Of a stretch of DNA of 35,334 nt, positions 17,815-28,916 are shown piece by piece. A program made the translations under genes and the position numbers. Source of the stretch: a virus. The stretch covers positions 1 through 35,334 of IMG/VR virus record IMGVR_UViG_3300020711_000023. One strand, 5' to 3'. How positions within the stretch are numbered: position 1 is the first letter of the stretch; the number at the start of each line of letters is the position of its first letter. The notes beneath the pieces are model-generated. The model did no database searches. It was not told the DNA's origin and saw nothing but the letters and a program-made list of their open reading frames with translations.

Positions 17815-18514
17815 TGAATATCATCTAGGGGATAACCTAGTTCATCTTAATTACTTAAGGCGGGTTTGCAAAGAGAACCCCGACCTTGAGTTCACCCACC
17901 ACTGTAATCCGATGCACCACAGTCAACTAACCCCGTTGCTTGAGGATGTTCCTATTAGCTTGCAAGGGTTAAGTATTCCGCCTGGCACAGTAAACGCTTG
18001 GATTGGTAGGGATAATTACTTTTACAACCATCCCCTACAGCATGATTGGGTTAACTTTCATCTGGAATGGTTTGACCACCTATCTAACCTTCTTGAATTA
18101 CCCTCCCCTATGGCTTGCAGAGAGGATCTACTCTTTGAGTACCCCGCCTTAAACGCCCCCATTCCCATTGAATTTGATTACCTCATCATTAACGCCCTCC
18201 CACAATCAGGGCAATTGCCAGACTTTGATGCTCAATTCTTCAAGAATCGGGTACGCAATCTTCTAAATGAGGGGTTTTCTGTCATCACAACGAACCCTAC
18301 AGGCATGGGTTTATCCACTTTAGAGATGGGTTTAGATGTTACAGGCATCGGAAGCCTATCCAAATACTGCAAACACATAGAAGGCGTTGCTACTGGTCCG
18401 ATGTGGACAACCTTTAATATATTCAATAAAGACAAGGTGTTAAGCCGTAAGTTCTATTGCTCTCATCAAAGCGTGAACTTAACCGACAACACAACCACGC
18501 TCAATAAACTGTAA
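17798..18514 (+). CDS. GT-B/heptosyltransferase-like protein, 238 aa
   Basis: The start MIHTYNEYHLGDNLVHLNYL matches the GDxxxxxxxL loop at the beginning of family-9 (ADP-heptose:LPS heptosyltransferase-like) GT-B proteins. A later VITTNPTGMGLSTLEMG, then GIGSLSKYCKHIEGVATGPM resembles their donor-binding domain, where an xGP(S/M)-type loop binds the nucleotide sugar. At 238 residues it is shorter than cellular enzymes (about 320-350). It is the only rightward gene left of the AT-rich region at 18515-18993. No strong RBS is visible before the ATG. Confidence 0.65.
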   Translation: MIHTYNEYHLGDNLVHLNYLRRVCKENPDLEFTHHCNPMHHSQLTPLLEDVPISLQGLSIPPGTVNAWIGRDNYFYNHPLQHDWVNFHLEWFDHLSNLLELPSPMACREDLLFEYPALNAPIPIEFDYLIINALPQSGQLPDFDAQFFKNRVRNLLNEGFSVITTNPTGMGLSTLEMGLDVTGIGSLSKYCKHIEGVATGPMWTTFNIFNKDKVLSRKFYCSHQSVNLTDNTTTLNKL

Positions 18515-18993
18515 TTTTTTTTGGGGTGGACTCGGAAGGGGGTGCACACCTCACCGTACTCATGCCCAACTCAAAGGGCAAACAGTCATCGTGCAATCGT
18601 TTAATCTATCCCGATCCCAAATGATCTAACCAGGCTCTAGGTTATATCTATGGGCATCTCAGAGCGTACCCGTACCCCTATTTAGAATTGATAAGAGCGC
18701 ACGATGTGCAAACCTACCCGCCTTTAATCTTACCCTACGCCTTATCTATATATCTACTTACTAAGATCCTAGATGATCTATAGACAATAGATGATAGCTA
18801 TATACACTATATAGACTATAGACAATCTAAATATAGATATTATAGATATGCGACATCTTACCATAGCTATAGACTATTGACAATAAAACAACAATTAAAA
18901 AATACAATGGTATAGTCTAATCAATCTATGCTTATAATCATATCTATGCAGTAAAGCATTACACTTAAAACCTAACTACTAAGAGGATATACC
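18515..18993 (+). promoter_or_regulatory. 479-base non-coding AT-rich region: origin/early promoter candidate
   Basis: No credible gene here. The left part has a T8 run after the upstream stop, a hairpin TGCCC/GGGCA (18563-18580) and an inverted pair CATCGTGC (18587-18594) and GCACGATG (18699-18706). The right part (about 18740-18960) is very AT-rich, with three copies of CTATAGACAAT or CTATAGACTAT (18778-18788, 18816-18826, 18867-18877) and many TATAG/CTATA palindromes. A TTGACA lies at 18877-18882 and a TATAAT at 18933-18938, though they do not pair at standard spacing. Iteron-like repeats next to AT-rich DNA suit an origin; a regulated early promoter is the alternative. Confidence 0.5.
18971..18978 (+). 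promoter_or_regulatory. CCTAACTA leader element, copy 1 (ArdC gene)
   Basis: CCTAACTA preceded by AAAA, 15 bases before the ATG at 18994 and just upstream of the AGAGGA ribosome binding site. One of at least five exact copies in early-gene leaders. Confidence 0.6.
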
Positions 18994-19869
18994 ATGCAAA
19001 ATACTACAAGCCGTATCAGCGTATATGACAGCGTTACTAATAAGATCATCTCTCAACTTGAGAGCGGGATAGCACCTTGGATCAAGCCTTGGAAATCTGG
19101 TCAAGCTGGCGGAGCTGATCGCAATATCGTATCTAAAAAAGAGTATTCAGGCGTTAACCGTTTAATTCTAGGTATGAGCGGTTACAGCTCACCTATTTGG
19201 GGATCATTCAAACAATGGCAGGAATTAGGCGGGAATGTCAGAAAAGGTGAAAAGGGTACGCAAGTAGTTTTCTATTCACAAGTGACTAAAGGTGAGATAA
19301 AGCCAACTGATCTGAACCCTGATAAATCTACCTATGCACTTCTCAAGTCTTATTATGTTTTTAACTTGGATCAGATTGATGGATTAGAAATAAGCAAACC
19401 AGAGCCAGTAATCTCCACCTTTAATCCAGTACCCGCTTTAGATGATCGCATTATTAAGACTGGCGCTCAGATCTCTCATGGCGGAGGCAGGGCATTTTAT
19501 CGCCCTGGTACTGACAGCATTACCTTACCAGCTAGAGATCTATTCCTAAGTGAAAGCCACTACTATGCGACTGTATTGCATGAGTTAACTCATTGGTCAG
19601 GCGCTGAGCATCGTTTAGATCGTACAAAAGGCAAACGGTTTGCTGATACAGCGTACGCATTTGAGGAGCTGGTTGCTGAAATGGGCGCTGCATTTTTATG
19701 CGCTGATTATGGTATCCAGGGTGAGCTGCAGCACGCTGACTACATCGGCAATTGGCTACAGTGCCTTAAAAATGACAATAAAGCAATTTTTAACGCTGCA
19801 GCATTGGCACAAAAGGCAGCCGATTACATAAACAATCTAGATGCACTGACTAACCAGGCAGCAGCTTAA
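18994..19869 (+). CDS. ardC: ArdC-type antirestriction protein (ssDNA-binding domain plus zincin)
   Basis: 291 residues. The N-terminal ArdC domain spans roughly residues 5-125 (VYDSVTNKIISQLESGIAPW, then YSGVNRLILG and a FKQWQELGGNVRKGEKGTQV block). The C-terminal zinc metallopeptidase-like domain has HELTHWSGAEHRL, with HExxH at residues 196-200, and AFEELVAEMGA supplying a third ligand. Known ArdC proteins bind DNA and protect incoming DNA from host restriction. Here it is the first gene after the AT-rich region, so it is probably expressed on entry. The RBS (AGAGGA) follows a CCTAACTA element. Confidence 0.88.
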   Translation: MQNTTSRISVYDSVTNKIISQLESGIAPWIKPWKSGQAGGADRNIVSKKEYSGVNRLILGMSGYSSPIWGSFKQWQELGGNVRKGEKGTQVVFYSQVTKGEIKPTDLNPDKSTYALLKSYYVFNLDQIDGLEISKPEPVISTFNPVPALDDRIIKTGAQISHGGGRAFYRPGTDSITLPARDLFLSESHYYATVLHELTHWSGAEHRLDRTKGKRFADTAYAFEELVAEMGAAFLCADYGIQGELQHADYIGNWLQCLKNDNKAIFNAAALAQKAADYINNLDALTNQAAA

Positions 19870-19879
19870 ACAGTGATAC

Positions 19880-19911
19880 CTAGTAAGCGCTTAGTGATAG
19901 GCGCTTACTGG
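19880..19911 (+). other. strong hairpin after the antirestriction gene
   Basis: A perfect 9-bp inverted repeat AGTAAGCGC (19882-19890) and GCGCTTACT (19901-19909) with a 10-base loop, extended by a U-G and a C-G pair to 11 bp. No U-run follows, so it is more likely an RNA processing site, stabiliser or attenuator than an intrinsic terminator. Confidence 0.6.
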
Positions 19912-19932
19912 ATTGTCATTAGACAGTCAAAA

Positions 19933-19940
19933 CCTAACTA
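19933..19940 (+). promoter_or_regulatory. CCTAACTA leader element, copy 2
   Basis: AAAACCTAACTAA, 12 bases before the ATG at 19953 and directly upstream of TTGGAGGA. Confidence 0.6.
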
Positions 19941-19952
19941 ATTGGAGGATTT

Positions 19953-20153
19953 ATGGATCAAGTAAGAGCCGATATAAAACTATCAACTGGCAGGATAGTA
20001 AAACATACTAGGCAGGAAAATGGATCACAACTTGCAACACCTACACCAGGATGCTATGAAATGACTAACCAGGAATGGATAGAGTATTGCAAGATCATCA
20101 ATGGGGGATATATTCCACGATACCCCATGCAAGGAGAGGATCTAACAGCATGA
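19953..20153 (+). CDS. hypothetical early protein, 66 aa
   Basis: Begins MDQVRADIKLSTGRIVKHTR after a strong GGAGGA ribosome binding site; contains YEMTNQEWIEYCKIINGGYI. No known domain. The stop overlaps the next ATG (ATGA), coupling the pair. Position right after the antirestriction gene suggests an early host-takeover or anti-defence role, by location only. Confidence 0.68.
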   Translation: MDQVRADIKLSTGRIVKHTRQENGSQLATPTPGCYEMTNQEWIEYCKIINGGYIPRYPMQGEDLTA

Positions 20154-20326
20154 GCCTACTATCTGAGATGCAAAAACATGGTTTAGCAGATTGTGAGTTC
20201 AATCGCCAATTTTTTACACTTGATGAGCTGTATAAATCATATTGCTATAGAGCTGCTAAACAAGGGTTTCAGGCGTTATCGTTTAATTCGTGGCGATACT
20301 GTCATAAAGCAAATATCACGCTGTAG
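20150..20326 (+). CDS. hypothetical early protein, 58 aa
   Basis: Start chosen at 20150 (MSLLSEMQKHGLADCEFNRQ), which overlaps the upstream stop by 4 bases and has AAGGAGAGG upstream; an ATG at 20075 in the same frame would lie within the previous gene. Helical, with aromatic and Cys residues (YKSYCYRAAKQGFQALSFNS). Not recognised. Confidence 0.65.
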   Translation: MSLLSEMQKHGLADCEFNRQFFTLDELYKSYCYRAAKQGFQALSFNSWRYCHKANITL

Positions 20327-20327
20327 A

Positions 20328-20377
20328 GCGATTAAAGGGTTTAGTGGTATTAGGTATCACTTACCCTTATTTATCGC
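20328..20377 (+). other. long imperfect hairpin after the 58-aa gene
   Basis: GCGAT (20328-20332) and AAGGGT (20335-20340) pair with ACCCTT (20363-20368) and ATCGC (20373-20377); AGTG (20343-20346) pairs with CACT (20358-20361). Small bulges separate the stems. With the hairpin at 19880-19911, two successive early intergenic gaps each carry a hairpin followed by a CCTAACTA element. Confidence 0.5.
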
Positions 20378-20432
20378 CTTGGCGCTTGTTTTAAAGTGTT
20401 TTAAATTGATTTTATGTATTTGTCTTACCTAA

Positions 20433-20440
20433 CCTAACTA
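20433..20440 (+). promoter_or_regulatory. CCTAACTA leader element, copy 3
   Basis: Preceded by another ACCTA, giving ACCTAACCTAACTA; 15 bases before the ATG at 20456, upstream of CGAGG. Confidence 0.6.
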
Positions 20441-20455
20441 ATTTTCGAGGTATTT

Positions 20456-20614
20456 ATGAGAAATAATGATATTTATACAATTGATCGCAAAATCTTTATA
20501 AAGAAGAAATATTCCCTCATGCGTGTGCAAGGGGTAATCAGTAAAGATCAGTTAATTGACTTAGTAGCTGTATTTGGTGGTTTGCTACTGGTTTGGTTAT
20601 TGTTGGCTTTGTAA
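20456..20614 (+). CDS. small C-terminally anchored membrane protein, 52 aa
   Basis: 52 codons from the ATG at 20456 (CGAGG RBS) to TAA at 20612-20614. Residues 1-30 are basic (MRNNDIYTIDRKIFIKKKYS) and residues 32-52 form one hydrophobic segment (LIDLVAVFGGLLLVWLLLAL), so it is likely tail-anchored in the inner membrane. A CCTAACTA element precedes it. Function unknown; early phage membrane peptides often target host processes. Confidence 0.65.
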   Translation: MRNNDIYTIDRKIFIKKKYSLMRVQGVISKDQLIDLVAVFGGLLLVWLLLAL

Positions 20615-20953
20615 GAACCCCAAAACCCCAATGAACCCCGAGAGAATAAGAACCTTACCCGCCTTACGGTGGGGGATCTCTTTTCAGAGAGTGGTTATCG
20701 TTTATCGGTGGCACTTAACTAAAGCGGTGCTGTCCAGTAACGGTCCGCCAGATGGTAGCTGCCTTGTTTATCCCTATCCATCACCACAATGTTTAGGAGG
20801 GCTGGGTTATAGCCCCGTAGTAGTTCGCTTTAATCGTGATTTTGATGGTGTTGGTCTTAAATCGTTATGAGAACCCAATTCATAACAGACCCAAAACCAC
20901 GACTAAAACAAACTTAATCGGATTAGATCATACTTTTTAAAGGAGTGCAATAG
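20615..20953 (+). other. 339-base stretch without a convincing gene; weak 79-codon frame
   Basis: A frame from ATG 20631 to TGA 20870 could encode 79 residues but has no RBS (ACCCCA precedes the ATG) and an odd, Pro/Gly/Tyr-rich product (SSNGPPDGSCLVYPYPSPQC). The DNA looks more GC-rich than its neighbours and begins with two small hairpins, CCCGCC/GGTGGG (about 20658-20674) and CTCT/AGAG just after. It may be a degraded gene, an uncoupled small gene or a structured leader. The true next gene begins after AAAGGAG at 20954. Confidence 0.35.
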
Positions 20954-21112
20954 ATGCGTGTTTTAGTAGCGTGCGAGTTTAGCGGAACAGTAAGAGATGC
21001 GTTTATAAGAGCAGGTCATACCGCTTTATCTTGCGATCTTATGCCAACTGATAAACCAGGACCACACTATCAAGGTGATGTTATGGACATCATTGGGGGG
21101 GGTGGGATTTGA
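20954..21112 (+). CDS. methyltransferase-like protein, N-terminal part before the G8 frame break
   Basis: ATG at 20954 after AAAGGAG. The 52-residue product (MRVLVACEFSGTVRDAFIRA, then GHTALSCDLMPTDKPGPHYQ and GDVMDII) has the SAM-binding start of phage DNA cytosine-methyltransferase-like proteins: VACEFSG loop, SCDL acidic residue and GDV. The frame breaks at a run of eight G (21095-21102) and stops at 21110. A nine- or six-G run, or a -1 ribosomal shift, joins it to the next frame as GGGWDLMIAHPPCTHL, exactly as the intact family reads. I see no Pro-Cys (PCQ-type) catalytic loop other than PPCTHL in the second part. Confidence 0.75.
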   Translation: MRVLVACEFSGTVRDAFIRAGHTALSCDLMPTDKPGPHYQGDVMDIIGGGGI

Positions 21113-21549
21113 TGATAGCTCACCCGCCTTGCACGCATTTGGCAGTATCAGGTGCTAGGCATTTTGAAAAGAAAAGGGCAGATGGAAGGCAGCAGGAGGG
21201 AATTGATTTCTTTATGGCATTAGCTAGAGCAGCCATTCCCCGTTACGCAATAGAGAACCCTATAGGAATTATGAGCAATATTTGGAGAAAACCCGATCAA
21301 ATTATTCAACCTTGGCAATATGGGCATAGTGTTACAAAATCCACTTGCTTGTGGCTTAAAGGGCTGCCAGCTCTTACGCCTACGGATATAGTCGATAAAG
21401 GGGTAACTTGGACAGCCAAAAGCGGTAAAAGAATGTCGCAGTGGTATTACGACAGTAGTTGTTTAAATCCTAAAGAAAGGGAAAAGATGAGAAACAAAAC
21501 ATTTCAAGGTATAGCAGATGCTATGGCACAACAATGGGGGATTTTATGA
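21109..21549 (+). CDS. methyltransferase-like protein, C-terminal part after the frame break
   Basis: About 146 residues from the shifted frame: MIAHPPCTHLAVSGARHFEK (PPC motif of the methyltransferase fold), AIPRYAIENPIGIMS (the ENP motif matching ENV of cytosine-5 enzymes), QPWQYGHSVTKSTCLWLKGL and FQGIADAMAQQWG. Together with the fragment at 20954-21112 it makes a protein of about 198 residues, the expected length for this phage family. The internal TTG/ATG at 21109-21112 has no RBS, so independent translation is doubtful. It might be a methyltransferase or an inactive relative; the target is not known. Confidence 0.8.
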   Translation: MMIAHPPCTHLAVSGARHFEKKRADGRQQEGIDFFMALARAAIPRYAIENPIGIMSNIWRKPDQIIQPWQYGHSVTKSTCLWLKGLPALTPTDIVDKGVTWTAKSGKRMSQWYYDSSCLNPKEREKMRNKTFQGIADAMAQQWGIL

Positions 21550-21704
21550 GTAAAGCAGATAAAGATGCGCAGAAGTGGCAAGAGATGAACCAGGCAGCTC
21601 AGTACCGAGAATGGATCAGAGCAACGGAAACAGGTACGCCTTATTACATCAATCCTCAAGGCGATGTAGTGACTGAAGATAAAAAAACAACACCTAATAA
21701 ATAA
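21546..21704 (+). CDS. hypothetical small protein, 52 aa
   Basis: The ATG at 21546 overlaps the preceding stop (ATGA). 52 codons end at TAA 21702-21704. Begins MSKADKDAQKWQEMNQAAQY and ends EDKKTTPNK; charged and helical in its first half. Coupling to the methyltransferase-like gene is the only clue. Confidence 0.62.
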   Translation: MSKADKDAQKWQEMNQAAQYREWIRATETGTPYYINPQGDVVTEDKKTTPNK

Positions 21705-21755
21705 ATTGCACTAATCGTAGTAATGTAGTAATGTTCTATCTGTAGTAACTGAAAC

Positions 21756-21763
21756 CCTAACTA
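21756..21763 (+). promoter_or_regulatory. CCTAACTA leader element, copy 4
   Basis: AAACCCTAACTA, 17 bases before the ATG at 21781, upstream of AAGGAA. Just before it the sequence repeats GTAGTAA three times (about 21717-21748). Confidence 0.6.
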
Positions 21764-21780
21764 TTTAATAAGGAATAATC

Positions 21781-21993
21781 ATGGAATATTGCGTTAATTG
21801 CAAACACCTAGACCACTCGACACTTTCGTGTGCGAAAAGCTCAACAATAAGCCTAGTAACAGGCAAAGCGCTATACAGTAGCGCATATCTATATCGTCAA
21901 GACGAGCATTATTGCGGTAAAGATGGCAAATGGTTTGAATTTATGGAAACTGAAGATCTTGACGATCTCTCAGCAATCCCTTTTGGTAAATAA
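21781..21993 (+). CDS. Cys-rich small protein, possible zinc binder, 70 aa
   Basis: Cys4, Cys7, Cys17 and Cys45, with His9, His12 and His43, could form a zinc site (EYCVNCKHLDHSTLSCAKSS). The rest is acidic (METEDLDDLSAIPFGK). RBS AAGGAA. Similar short Cys-rich proteins are common in phage early regions with no known function. Confidence 0.68.
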   Translation: MEYCVNCKHLDHSTLSCAKSSTISLVTGKALYSSAYLYRQDEHYCGKDGKWFEFMETEDLDDLSAIPFGK

Positions 21994-22001
21994 CCTATCT
22001 A
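21994..22001 (+). promoter_or_regulatory. CCTATCTA variant of the leader element
   Basis: One mismatch from CCTAACTA; 12 bases before the ATG at 22014, the same spacing as copies 2 and 5, upstream of TGGAG. Confidence 0.45.
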
Positions 22002-22013
22002 ATGGAGTTAATC

Positions 22014-22283
22014 ATGGCAAAAACACCAAGCAGTAAGAATAAACCTAAGACACCTTTTCCAGTGAAGGCAGTTGATAAGAAGATCAATGATGCTTACACC
22101 AAAAAAGAAGTAGATCGTCTTAAAAACCTAGTCGCAAGGCAAGATGACCTTATAGCTCAGATGCTAGATGAGTTAAAACAAGAGCAGATCAAAACTGGCA
22201 TGCTAGGTCAAGAGTTAGAAGATCTAGAAGATGAGATCGACAGTTGGAAAGAGATTGTTAAAACCATTATGGAGGTGGTATGA
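22014..22283 (+). CDS. coiled-coil protein upstream of the exonuclease, 89 aa
   Basis: Start at 22014 (MAKTPSSKNKPKTPFPVKAV) after TGGAG; a 4-codon upstream extension is less likely. Lys/Pro-rich first 25 residues, then a long acidic coiled coil (VDRLKNLVARQDDLIAQMLD through LEDLEDEIDSWKEIV). It overlaps the exonuclease gene by 4 bases. Function unknown; coupling suggests a recombination accessory. Confidence 0.65.
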   Translation: MAKTPSSKNKPKTPFPVKAVDKKINDAYTKKEVDRLKNLVARQDDLIAQMLDELKQEQIKTGMLGQELEDLEDEIDSWKEIVKTIMEVV

Positions 22284-23179
22284 ACGATCAAGCAGATTTT
22301 GCACCAGAGATAAGGCGTTCCGCCATATGGTCAGGTGACAGTCGTAAGGTCGCTAATGGCAAGATGGTAGATGTCATCTTAGAGAAGCAAGGTAAGAAGG
22401 AGCTAAAAGACCTCTCAGGCGTGGAAGCAGTGCAGATGGGTCATGTCATGCAACCTTTGATTGGAAAGCTGGCTCAAGATCGTTTAAAGATGGAGTTAAA
22501 AGATGCTGATTACTCGATTACCCATTCAAAGCATACTTGGTTTAAATCTCATTTTGATTTCATTAGTGCTGATGGTGGTGTGCTTGTTGAAGCTAAAAAC
22601 TACAACGCAGCAGTTCGCTCTAAGTTTGATCCCGACACTAATCGGATTCCTGATGCTGATTACGCACAACTTGTCCACGAAGCTGCTTGCCACAATGTTA
22701 ATCGGATCTTTTTGGCTGTTTTATTTGGTGGTCAAGAGTTTCATACCTTTGAATTTACTATTTCAGACCAAGAAAAAGATGATCTCATACAGAAAATGGC
22801 TACAGTTTGGGGTCATTGCCAAGCGGGTACGCTTCCGCCAGCAGAAACCATTGAGCAAACTAAGATCATTTACCCGTCATCCTCTACTGCGGTGGTTACG
22901 GCTACACAGCAAGTTGAGTTGGCTATCGCTCAGTTACGGGATGTCAAGAATCAGATTAAACACCTTGAAGCTACTGAGGAGCAGATTGAAGTGGCTGTCC
23001 GAAATCTTATGGGAGAGTGCCAAGAGATTAGAACAGTGGATGGACAGACATTAGTTTCTTGGAAGTCCTCTAAAAGCTCTAAGAAGTTCTCAGCATCACT
23101 GTTTCAGAGTGCCATGCCTGATATTTATGAGCAGTTTGTAGTCGAGCAGCCAGGTTCTCGGAGGTTCTTAGTCAAATGA
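22280..23179 (+). CDS. YqaJ/lambda-exonuclease-type recombinase nuclease
   Basis: 299 residues. The PD-(D/E)xK core of YqaJ-type viral exonucleases is visible: MGHVMQPLIGKLAQDRL (about residues 53-69), HFDFISADGG with Asp93, and VEAKNYN with Glu104 and Lys106, followed by DADYAQLVHEAACHNVNRIF, the conserved Gln/His helix. The C-terminal third is a coiled coil (QLRDVKNQIKHLEATEEQIE) common in this group. It resects DNA ends to make 3' single strands for the annealing protein at 23857-24681. RBS GGAGG. Confidence 0.88.
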   Translation: MNDQADFAPEIRRSAIWSGDSRKVANGKMVDVILEKQGKKELKDLSGVEAVQMGHVMQPLIGKLAQDRLKMELKDADYSITHSKHTWFKSHFDFISADGGVLVEAKNYNAAVRSKFDPDTNRIPDADYAQLVHEAACHNVNRIFLAVLFGGQEFHTFEFTISDQEKDDLIQKMATVWGHCQAGTLPPAETIEQTKIIYPSSSTAVVTATQQVELAIAQLRDVKNQIKHLEATEEQIEVAVRNLMGECQEIRTVDGQTLVSWKSSKSSKKFSASLFQSAMPDIYEQFVVEQPGSRRFLVK

Positions 23180-25639: not shown

Positions 25640-25908
25640 CAGTCGCTCAGACTTCGATTAACGCTTATAAAGAACATAGGGCTAGTGGCAAAGTAGGCGC
25701 ACAAGCTAAAGCCATATTGGACTTTATGAACCTTGGTGAGAGTTATTCACGCAGAGAGCTTCATGTTTTAACTGGATTAGAGTTAAGTTCAATTTGCGGT
25801 AGGGTCAATGAATTACTAGAGATGGGGATGCTTAAGGAAGGATCTAAGCGCAAATGTATGGTTACTAAAAAGACGGTTTCACCTGTTATTAAGGATTCGT
25901 TGTTTTAA
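25636..25908 (+). CDS. winged-helix DNA-binding protein, 90 aa
   Basis: Start at 25636 (MTVAQTSINAYKEHRASGKV) with CAAGGAG upstream. The core AKAILDFMNLGESYSRREL, HVLTGLELSSICGRVNELLE, MGMLKEGSKRKC is a typical winged helix-turn-helix with recognition helix and wing. It could regulate the downstream TPP/radical SAM cassette (its stop touches the next ATG) or act as a replication factor. No effector domain is present. Confidence 0.7.
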   Translation: MTVAQTSINAYKEHRASGKVGAQAKAILDFMNLGESYSRRELHVLTGLELSSICGRVNELLEMGMLKEGSKRKCMVTKKTVSPVIKDSLF

Positions 25909-26525
25909 TGAAAAATTGCGCAAAAGAAGATTTGATTGCGTTTGAGAAAGCGGTAGCATCTCATTGGGAAGCGGGAGATTTACCCTACCTCATTCACCTA
26001 TCAGGCGGTAATGAGGATTTTTTGATTGACTTGTTCAAGGAGATTAAAGATGGAGATTGGATTTTCAGCACTCATCGGAATCACCATCACGCTCTATTGG
26101 CTGGAATACCCGCAAATGAGCTTATGGCAAGCATTTTGGATGGCGATTCTATGTTTATTTTCGACAATAACCGTCACTTTTTTACTTCGAGCATTTTATC
26201 TGGCACTTGCGCTATTGCAACAGGTCTGGCTTATGCTTTAAAAGAAGAAGGTAGCTCTAGTAGGGTCTGGTGTTTCTTAGGTGATGGTGCAGAAGAACAA
26301 GGACACTTCTATGAGGCGGTAATGATGGTCCAAGGACATGATCTACCTTGTACATTTATTATTGAAGATAACAACCGTAGCGTAGATTCAACGCTAGAGG
26401 AACGCTTACCTTATCAGTTTAGGTTTAGGCTGCCAGGATGCGTAATCCGCAACAACTACGATCCTACCTATCCTCATGCTGGCAACGGCACTAAAAAGCA
26501 TATTGTTTTTAAGGATGTTAAATGA
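25908..26525 (+). CDS. TPP-dependent enzyme, E1 alpha-like subunit
   Basis: 205 residues, shorter than cellular E1 alpha (about 320-400). It keeps the cofactor parts: STHRNHHHALLAGIPANELM (the His-rich E1 alpha loop), SGTCAIATGLAYALKE, and the TPP/Mg motif FLGDGAEEQGHFYEA (GDG at 125-127) ending in IIEDNN (Asn155-156), the standard 28-residue spacing. It binds thiamine pyrophosphate and would act with the beta-type protein encoded 4 bases into its end. No E2 or E3 gene exists here, so a dehydrogenase complex is unlikely; ketol/aldehyde transfer or decarboxylation is inferred. Confidence 0.82.
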   Translation: MKNCAKEDLIAFEKAVASHWEAGDLPYLIHLSGGNEDFLIDLFKEIKDGDWIFSTHRNHHHALLAGIPANELMASILDGDSMFIFDNNRHFFTSSILSGTCAIATGLAYALKEEGSSSRVWCFLGDGAEEQGHFYEAVMMVQGHDLPCTFIIEDNNRSVDSTLEERLPYQFRFRLPGCVIRNNYDPTYPHAGNGTKKHIVFKDVK

Positions 26526-27037
26526 GCTACAAGGATGAGCTTACTAAAGCCAATACCAAATTAGCCCAAAACCCTCAAGTGCGTTTTATTGGCTATGGTC
26601 TTAAAAAAGGCAGAGCATTAGGTACGCTAAAAGAAGTGGCAGATAGTCAGATTATTGAGATGCCTGTAGCAGAGAACCTGATGATGGGGTTTGCAATAGG
26701 ACTATCACTCAAGGGATACCTCCCAGTGGTCTTTATTGAGCGTATGGACTTCTTAATGAACGCAATGGATGCAATGGTCAACCATTTAGACAAAATAGCC
26801 AAAATCTCTCATGGTGAGTTCCACCCAAAAGTCATTATTCGTTGCATTGTGGGCAATACCAAGAAGCCTCTTTATACAGGCGCTACTCATACTCAAGATT
26901 TAACCGAAGGAATACGCCAAATGGTGAGCTTTCCTGTGTGGAAAATGAAAGATGAGGGTGATATTGAAGTGTTTTATGACCTTGCCAGCAAGACTTTTGA
27001 TTCCGTAATGTTGGTCGAATATAAGGATTTAGCGTGA
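26522..27037 (+). CDS. TPP-dependent enzyme, E1 beta-like (transketolase Pyr) subunit
   Basis: 171 residues, only the pyrimidine-binding domain of an E1 beta subunit. Visible are IIEMPVAENLMMGFAIGLSL (Glu51, the TPP-activating glutamate), YLPVVFIERMDFLMNAMDAM, VNHLDKIAKIS and TGATHTQDL (His123, matching the conserved HSQ/HTQ His). The C-terminal transketolase domain of usual E1 beta is absent. With the alpha-like protein it forms a complete split TPP site. It overlaps its neighbours by 4 bases on each side. Confidence 0.82.
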   Translation: MSYKDELTKANTKLAQNPQVRFIGYGLKKGRALGTLKEVADSQIIEMPVAENLMMGFAIGLSLKGYLPVVFIERMDFLMNAMDAMVNHLDKIAKISHGEFHPKVIIRCIVGNTKKPLYTGATHTQDLTEGIRQMVSFPVWKMKDEGDIEVFYDLASKTFDSVMLVEYKDLA

Positions 27038-28128
27038 AAAGCAATAAATATAGCGATTTTAAGATCTTTCATCATCCAGAAAAGCTGATTTCTTTTGGGG
27101 CGGGGAAGGTTACTGCACCTGTGTATGTTCGGGTCAAGCCAATTAACCTTTGTAATCACGGATGTTTCTTTTGCGTGTATAGCACTGGTTTTAGAGTAAA
27201 AGACGGTGGAGAAGAAGAACACATCGTTAGCGGTATGCACGAGGACATGAAGGAAGATGACATCATCCCTAGAGATAAGATGATTGAGATCTTGCATGAC
27301 CTAGCCAACATGGGTACTAAAGCTATTACATGGAGTGGGGGTGGAGAGCCATTGATGCACCCTGATATAGCAGACTTCATGCGCTTAACATTAGCTCTCA
27401 AGATGGACCTATCCATCATCACCAATGGTCAGAACCTAGTTAAAGAAAAAGCGGAAGTCTTAGCCAAAGCCAAGTGGGTGCGTGTATCAATGGATTACAC
27501 CAATGGCGAGGAAATGAAGCGGTTTAGGAATGTGCCAGAAAAGAGTTTTGATAGCATCATCCGCAATCTAAGAGGTTTTGCGGGAATGAAAGATGCGGGA
27601 TGTGATCTGGCTGTTAATTATATTGTGCATCGCAACAATTACAAAAATCTTGGGGGACTAACCCAGTTATTAAAAGATAGCGGTGTTGAAAATGTGCGTT
27701 TCAGTCCAATGTATGTACCAGACTTTTATGAATACCATAAACCGATAGCAGAGGAAGTTAATGAACAGCTTAAAAACATTCAAAAGATATGTGATGATCG
27801 CTTTACTGTTAACAGCACTTACAACATTACTCCTGGGAGTAGTCACTCTCATACTAGAAGCTATCACAAGTGCTTCATTATGCAGACCGTACCCGTCATC
27901 GGTGCAGACCTCAATGTATATGCTTGTCATAACAAAGCCTACGATAAGTCAGGATGTATAGGATCTATCAAAGACAGTAGCTTTCATAGGCTATGGTTTA
28001 GCCCTGAAACACAAGCCTATATGGACAAATTCAATGCTAAGACCACTTGTATGCACGAGTGTTCTAACGACAGAAAGAACATATTGATTAACGAAGTCAT
28101 TAACGCTAGTACCGACAACTTTATTTAA
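27034..28128 (+). CDS. radical SAM enzyme with SPASM-like C-terminus
   Basis: 364 residues, GTG start overlapping the previous stop. The iron-sulfur motif is CNHGCFFC (Cys40, Cys44, Cys47), followed by the SAM-binding TWSGGGEPLMHP (about 99-110), a SIITNGQNL strand and VRVSMDYTNGEEMKRFR. The C-terminal region has further cysteines (VYACHNKAYDKSGCIGSIKD; TTCMHECSNDRKN), like the auxiliary-cluster SPASM/twitch region, and a SFHRLWFSPE motif typical of that group. Such enzymes modify peptides, sugars or other small molecules by radical chemistry. Substrate unknown; coupling to the TPP enzyme suggests one pathway. Confidence 0.88.
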   Translation: MKSNKYSDFKIFHHPEKLISFGAGKVTAPVYVRVKPINLCNHGCFFCVYSTGFRVKDGGEEEHIVSGMHEDMKEDDIIPRDKMIEILHDLANMGTKAITWSGGGEPLMHPDIADFMRLTLALKMDLSIITNGQNLVKEKAEVLAKAKWVRVSMDYTNGEEMKRFRNVPEKSFDSIIRNLRGFAGMKDAGCDLAVNYIVHRNNYKNLGGLTQLLKDSGVENVRFSPMYVPDFYEYHKPIAEEVNEQLKNIQKICDDRFTVNSTYNITPGSSHSHTRSYHKCFIMQTVPVIGADLNVYACHNKAYDKSGCIGSIKDSSFHRLWFSPETQAYMDKFNAKTTCMHECSNDRKNILINEVINASTDNFI

Positions 28129-28136
28129 GGAAAATC

Positions 28137-28916
28137 ATGGCAACTAAGAAGAAGGCAGTATCAAAAGAACCCGTACAACCGATTATTTTTATTGCCACCC
28201 CCATGTATGGCGGTATGTGCGCTGGCTTTTACACTCAGTCGATATTGCAATCCATTAGCGTATTAAGCCAAGCGGGAATCCAAACTCAGTTTAGCTTTAT
28301 GTTTAACGAGAGCTTGATTACTAGGGCTAGAAACGCTTTAGCGCATACTTTCTTGAAGTCCAACTCTACCCATTTGATGTTTATTGATGCAGACATCAAA
28401 TTCAGACCAGAGGACATTGTGAGAATGATCCAAGCTGATAAAGACATCATCTGCGGTATCTACCCTAAAAAAGAGATCAATTGGAATAGCACCAAGCAAG
28501 CAATGGATGCAGGTGTTCCTAATGACCAGTTAAAGAGCCATACAGGAAGTTTTGTAGTTAACCTAGTTGACTATGCGGGTGAAGTTACTGTTCCCATAGA
28601 TCAACCAGTAGAGATCTTTAATGGCGGTACTGGCTTTATGTTGATTAAACGCAAGGTGTTTGAGAAGCTCAAGAAAAAAGTACCTTCTTACACCAATGAT
28701 GTAGGAGATCTTTCAGGTCAGTTAAATCACGCAGAGCAGATCCATGAATACTTTGCTACCTCGATTGAACCTGATAGCAATCGCTTGCTTTCAGAGGATT
28801 ATCACTTTTGCCGTATTTGGAGATTAGCGGGTGGAAAAGTGTTTGCAGCGCCTTGGGCTAACTTAGGACATTTAGGAAGCTACTTGTTTGAAGGGCAACT
28901 TACTCCAGCGCCTTGA
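28137..28916 (+). CDS. GT-A-like glycosyltransferase, last gene of the cassette
   Basis: 259 residues. After a Lys-rich start, PIIFIATPMYGG begins a nucleotide-sugar fold; FNESLITRARNALAHTFLKS and HLMFIDADIKFRPEDIVRMI contain the DxD (Asp84, Asp86), and FNGGTGFMLIKRKVFEKL and SEDYHFCRIWRLAGGKVFAA complete the pattern of phage GT-A proteins. It follows the radical SAM gene by 8 bases with an AAGGAAA RBS. Its 3' end overlaps the convergent DUF2061 gene by 17 bases. Confidence 0.8.
   Translation: MATKKKAVSKEPVQPIIFIATPMYGGMCAGFYTQSILQSISVLSQAGIQTQFSFMFNESLITRARNALAHTFLKSNSTHLMFIDADIKFRPEDIVRMIQADKDIICGIYPKKEINWNSTKQAMDAGVPNDQLKSHTGSFVVNLVDYAGEVTVPIDQPVEIFNGGTGFMLIKRKVFEKLKKKVPSYTNDVGDLSGQLNHAEQIHEYFATSIEPDSNRLLSEDYHFCRIWRLAGGKVFAAPWANLGHLGSYLFEGQLTPAP

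Follow-up and report, generated by a model that had tools for sequence, protein, structure and literature searches.

Results

A poly-G tract divides a methyltransferase-like gene between two frames

We found that a run of eight guanines in a phage genome is very probably a hypermutable simple-sequence repeat by which a DNA-methyltransferase-like gene of the phage is turned ON and OFF, making the gene a phase-variable contingency locus (probability about 0.85). The stretch of DNA analysed, hereafter the window, comprises 35,334 nt of IMG/VR record IMGVR_UViG_3300020711_000023. As in a contingency locus, the repeat sets the reading frame, with two lengths observed that correspond to two frames; its length varies between near-identical genomes, the OFF genes are otherwise intact, and the tract is kept beyond chance, as seen in its 46-fold enrichment, its restriction to the sense strand and its repeated gain and loss at two sites. 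A preliminary description of the sequence had listed phase variation as one of several options, and this option is now strongly supported by the G8 and G9 alleles in an otherwise identical 5.1 kb, the ON and OFF alleles of relatives and the intact DNA downstream. The features of the locus in the window are as follows.

20,940–20,945, + strand: Shine-Dalgarno-like AAGGAG, 8 bases 5′ of the ATG (from sequence)
20,954–21,112, + strand: N-terminal frame of the methyltransferase-like gene in the OFF allele, 52 aa, ending with TGA at 21,110–21,112 (from sequence and family alignment)
21,095–21,102, + strand: G8 tract, "site 2", the putative phase-variable repeat (contig L085, ON allele, has G9; contigs L084 and L091 have G8)
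21,103–21,549, + strand: remaining coding sequence, which lies in the -1 frame and is given here with its stop codon (WDLMIAHPPCTHL...); it encodes the catalytic PPC and ENP motifs and is intact to its natural end
21,112–21,114, + strand: ATG overlapping the OFF stop as TGATG (from sequence and relatives)

The frame opened by the ATG at 20,954 translates as MRVLVACEFSGTVRDAFIRAGHTALSCDLMPTDKPGPHYQGDVMDIIGGGGI up to the TGA at 21,110–21,112, and the -1 frame from TGG at 21,103 reads WDLMIAHPPCTHLAVSG... and stays open to 21,549. The tract, the early stop and the continuation in the -1 frame had all been proposed in the preliminary description, and the letters and their translation agree with each of them. 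According to the family alignment, the 52-aa OFF product contains only a motif-I-like start (ACEFSG..R) and an SCD segment. The 447 bases downstream of G8 carry no further damage. Either nine or six Gs had been suggested to restore the frame; nine was substantiated, as the in-frame site-2 relatives have G9 and yield the family length, whereas no six-G allele was found. Re-initiation at the ATG at 21,112–21,114 could possibly produce an N-terminally truncated fragment; the methionine concerned is also that of the conserved WD(L/M)M, so its presence does not have to reflect selection for a start codon.

G8 is the sole G/C run of at least 7 in the window, which contains no other simple repeat. 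A Markov model of the window predicted about 0.36 G/C runs of at least 8 per window, with one or more in 30% of simulated windows, and the observed G7 count equals the shuffled mean. On base composition G8 is therefore ordinary; the run alone proves nothing, and the case rests on the relatives.

The same phage occurs with two tract lengths

Scanning viral contigs for the tract together with its downstream motif yielded 21 contigs, three of which (L084, L085 and L091) represent the window's phage. L085 and positions 17,863–23,010 of the window are identical across 5,149 bp but for one gap, the ninth G, and with G9 L085 encodes a complete, family-length protein of 198 aa. The other two contigs have G8, L091 being 100% identical to the window across 8,710 bp and L084 being 99.8% identical. 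The window's lineage thus shows G8 in three of four assemblies and G9 in one, all of them metagenome assemblies in which each contig displays one allele. Otherwise identical DNA thus carries the tract in two lengths, neither of which is limited to one record. A close relative with about 82% DNA identity (L088 and L093) has G9 and is in frame. With nine Gs the protein reads I-I-G-G-G-W-D and is here as long as in tract-less relatives, for example I-I-N-D-G-W-D.

ON and OFF alleles are widespread in the family

Comparison of the tract in related phages, which the preliminary description had recommended, revealed length variants in and out of frame and more than 100 clusters (at least 95% nucleotide identity) with a tract. 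The commonest position, site 1, lies after RDAFI in the first helix and was found in 118 contigs by a pattern scan, with tract lengths of 7 to 12. The tract stands at site 1 in 99 clusters and at site 2, the position of the window's tract, in 12 clusters. An out-of-frame allele was present in 38 of the 112 clusters with a tract vs 1 of the 97 without (Fisher test, 3e-11). Relatives were also collected by the protein part behind the tract, which gives a sample not selected for tracts, and here the counts were 16/45 for tract and 1/91 for tract-less clusters (3e-8). The lone out-of-frame tract-less cluster (L228) has an interrupted tract, GGAGGGGG. This same sample contained 52 G/C runs of at least 8 in 92 kb of gene vs 8 in 646 kb of flank, an approximately 46-fold higher density in the gene; all 52 are G on the sense strand, with no C runs. 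Outside the tract, GGG accounts for only 14% of the glycine codons of the gene. A/T runs of the same gene, used as a control, were all in frame, but with four cases this control carries little weight.

Both ON and OFF alleles were found within seven clusters. L136 (G7) and L218 (G9) show no other difference in 3 kb, and L132 (G10) and L135 (G11) differ by one mismatch besides the tract. Shifts to either side occur among the OFF alleles, and the reading frames behind their tracts are intact to the natural end. The in-frame length is set by the context, AGG-G8 or ATT-G9, and G8 alleles are OFF in some contexts and ON in others. In a cluster of nine contigs, OFF (six contigs) and ON (three contigs) fall into two lineages about 96–97% identical. 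An OFF allele can therefore be maintained over time, and this split along lineages counts against high-rate switching.

Several further observations were made. Prophage-like copies in two isolate genomes have a site-1 tract, which is G8 and out of frame in Pseudoxanthomonas koreensis KCTC 12208 (L302) and in frame in P. dokdonensis (L303); their catalytic region differs from that of the family (HFPCTD and HAPCTD, respectively). Tracts interrupted by one base but keeping the frame occur in L221 (GGGGAGGGG), L265 and L324/L327/L328, and these are probably alleles locked ON. The methyltransferase gene also has a third repeat site close to its 3′ end, some 360 bases past the WD motif; it is (GA)11 and in frame in L014, and (GA)10 in L023, where the last 20 or so residues fall out of frame. 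Site-1 DNA was not found in plasmid records.

The tract has moved or re-arisen repeatedly

A quick tree with long branches was built from the protein part behind the tract, and its well-supported branches alone were used. On these, we counted at least 7 changes for site-2 tracts and at least 13 for site-1 tracts. The window and L088, both with the tract at site 2, group with L002 and L163, both with the tract at site 1, as a set of four with 97% support. The site thus changes even among close kin, which indicates that the tract moves or re-arises in this gene. This is an argument that selection acts on the presence of a tract and not on one particular sequence.

The product is predicted to have a C5-methyltransferase fold

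A profile search matched the protein to PHROG 757, "DNA methyltransferase" (2e-68). No Pfam family was matched at E up to 0.1, no NCBIfam model was matched, and a sequence search of the PDB gave no match; the enzyme class was found by fold comparison only. An AlphaFold model of the L085 protein, computed from a 53-sequence alignment, reached a pLDDT of 94.5, and its top PDB fold matches are all C5 methyltransferases, including DNMT3A (Z 13.4, 178 residues) and M.HhaI (Z 13.3, 191 residues). P58-P59-C60 and E101-N102-P103 are invariant in the 53 sequences, and we take them to be motif IV with the catalytic cysteine and motif VI, respectively. The model thus points to a C5-methyltransferase by its Rossmann-type fold, though not a member by Pfam or NCBIfam profiles, in keeping with the initial assignment of the gene as methyltransferase-like. 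Loss of activity in the OFF product can safely be deduced, since it ends at residue 52 and has neither PPC nor ENP.

Genomic neighbours and a second repeat-bearing gene

The gene lies among genes for anti-restriction and recombination. Its upstream neighbour is:

18,994–19,869, + strand: gene for an ArdC-type anti-restriction protein (PF08401, 2e-34; PF18818, 5e-48; PHROG 7245, 4e-85)

Downstream are recombination genes (RecE-like, RecT-like and RusA). These neighbours are compatible with a counter-restriction role, which they fit but do not demonstrate. Elsewhere in the window, positions 25,908–28,916 hold a metabolic-looking cluster comprising E1 dehydrogenase-like and transketolase pyrimidine-domain ORFs, a radical SAM/SPASM protein and an Anp1-like glycosyltransferase.

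One of the other long G runs in the contigs was located in a phage gene that is PAPS-reductase-like (PHROG 424). For this gene, scanning with a narrow poly-G pattern retrieved two contigs only, and a protein-based search gave more. The repeats stand just behind the first helix at the following places.

L020, position 862: tract in PAPS-reductase-like gene
L147, position 2322: tract in PAPS-reductase-like gene
L172, position 9452: tract in PAPS-reductase-like gene
L310–L389: loci of the PAPS-reductase-like gene

The relatives carry G9 or G10 tracts both in and out of frame, as well as (AG)n repeats, which keep the frame with 6 or 9 copies and lose it with 8 or 10; the exception is L377, where (AG)8 is in frame in a different context. 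In some genomes both genes have tracts, for example in L172 and L147; L382/L385 are the contigs of L089/L098.

Discussion

Since single-base indels are typical errors in G runs and the evidence for the window's lineage comes entirely from metagenome assemblies, we considered whether G8, like the remaining OFF lengths, arose through faulty sequencing or assembly of a homopolymer in a gene that is in truth always in frame. An error specific to the window record, as the preliminary description had envisaged, is unlikely because L084 and L091 also have G8 and L085 has G9, which makes three contigs of the lineage with G8 and one with G9. For the family as a whole, error is very unlikely: G8 OFF alleles coexist with G8 ON alleles elsewhere, so that length alone does not make the call, and the isolate genome of P. 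koreensis KCTC 12208 is also OFF. Nor would errors account for long G runs at two places in the gene, 46-fold denser than in the background, or for the (AG)n counterparts in the second gene. Decay into a pseudogene that has no switching role is a highly improbable explanation of the one-base loss and of the OFF state in three of the four lineage assemblies, given the 447 undamaged bases downstream and the ON allele in otherwise identical DNA; moreover, out-of-frame alleles are overwhelmingly linked to tracts, and homologues that have no tract are hardly ever broken.

Programmed -1 ribosomal frameshifting or transcriptional slippage could yield a full-length protein alongside the short one from G8, and the slippery heptamer G_GGG_GGT present at 21,097–21,103 is a possible tandem-slippage site from which a -1 slip enters the WDLM frame exactly. 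However, most tract-bearing relatives are in frame as they stand and require no shift (site-2 relatives mostly have G9), and OFF alleles are displaced both ways, which one programmed shift cannot mend. The position of the tract is not conserved, and no stable structure was detected 3′ of it (z = +0.54 vs shuffles, 21,104–21,190). With both kinds of shift needed, most alleles in frame and no stimulatory fold, the programmed shift put forward initially is quite unlikely as the main device, although frameshifting or slippage may allow leaky expression from OFF alleles. It is extremely improbable that the OFF allele encodes an enzyme in two pieces that assemble, one of 52 aa and one of 145 aa made by re-initiation at TGATG (21,110–21,114). 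The overlap of stop and ATG resembles that of coupled genes, but this ATG encodes the conserved Met of WD(L/M)M also found in in-frame relatives, and site-1 OFF alleles are built differently.

Under phase variation by repeat length, slipped-strand mispairing during replication would add Gs to the tract or remove them, presumably reversibly within a population. A tract of G9 would specify the 198-aa protein with the predicted cytosine-C5-methyltransferase fold, and a tract of G8 would bring a stop three codons past the tract, before PPC and ENP, so that no enzyme would be made. The ON product is probably an active DNA methyltransferase, and the benefit may be bet-hedging: methylated phage DNA would resist restriction enzymes that cut unmodified DNA, but would be exposed to methylation-dependent nucleases of other hosts. 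As a more tentative proposal, with the odds somewhat against it, many environmental phages may use repeat-switched C5-methyltransferase-like genes (with two poly-G sites, plus (GA)n close to the end of some) and PAPS-reductase-like genes to spread their populations over modification states, hedging against opposing host restriction systems.

If the phase-variation reading is true, repeats switch a common phage DNA-modification family in many environments. Methylated and unmethylated members would then coexist within a phage population, which would change the view of phage host range against restriction. Annotation pipelines would also be throwing out many such genes as frameshifted.

Simple-repeat phase variation is a textbook device of bacteria. 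In the open-licence literature searched, no direct precedent appeared for phage-encoded phase-variable methyltransferases, and the Campylobacter phage case is known via citing papers. As far as these sources extend, what is new here is the phage methyltransferase gene, and what was already known is poly-G in receptor-binding genes of Campylobacter phages and the switching of bacterial methyltransferases.

Compared with M.HhaI and DNMT3A, the phage protein shares the fold and the PPC and ENP motifs, but it has about 190–200 aa vs 327 for M.HhaI, 12–16% identity to the two enzymes and no Pfam match; its size leaves little room for a target-recognition domain. PHROG 757, with Burkholderia phage Bcep1 gp12 and Prochlorococcus phage P-SSP7 gp12 as examples, is the same family by profile and sequence. 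No tract was found in the GenBank phage relatives retrieved by DNA similarity, and the six examined are tract-less and in frame, unlike the window gene. According to the citing accounts, Fletchervirus phages of Campylobacter carry receptor-binding genes with hypermutable poly-G (Sorensen et al. 2021, via PMC11868660 and PMC11959909), and a 2025 review regards this case as still exceptional among phages (PMC11959909). As described there, a phage gene is switched by poly-G length, as here; however, those genes are receptor-binding, whereas the present gene is DNA-methyltransferase-like and is found with tracts in more than 100 clusters, mostly from uncultivated phages, at two tract positions. 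Phase-variable DNA methyltransferases of bacteria, in particular type III mod genes with repeat tracts, underlie phasevarions (PMC3711429). To the extent covered by that source, a repeat inside the methyltransferase gene shifts the frame and turns the gene ON or OFF in both cases, but phasevarion enzymes belong to bacterial restriction-modification, whereas the protein described here is phage-encoded, small and stand-alone, and its fold is of the C5 type.
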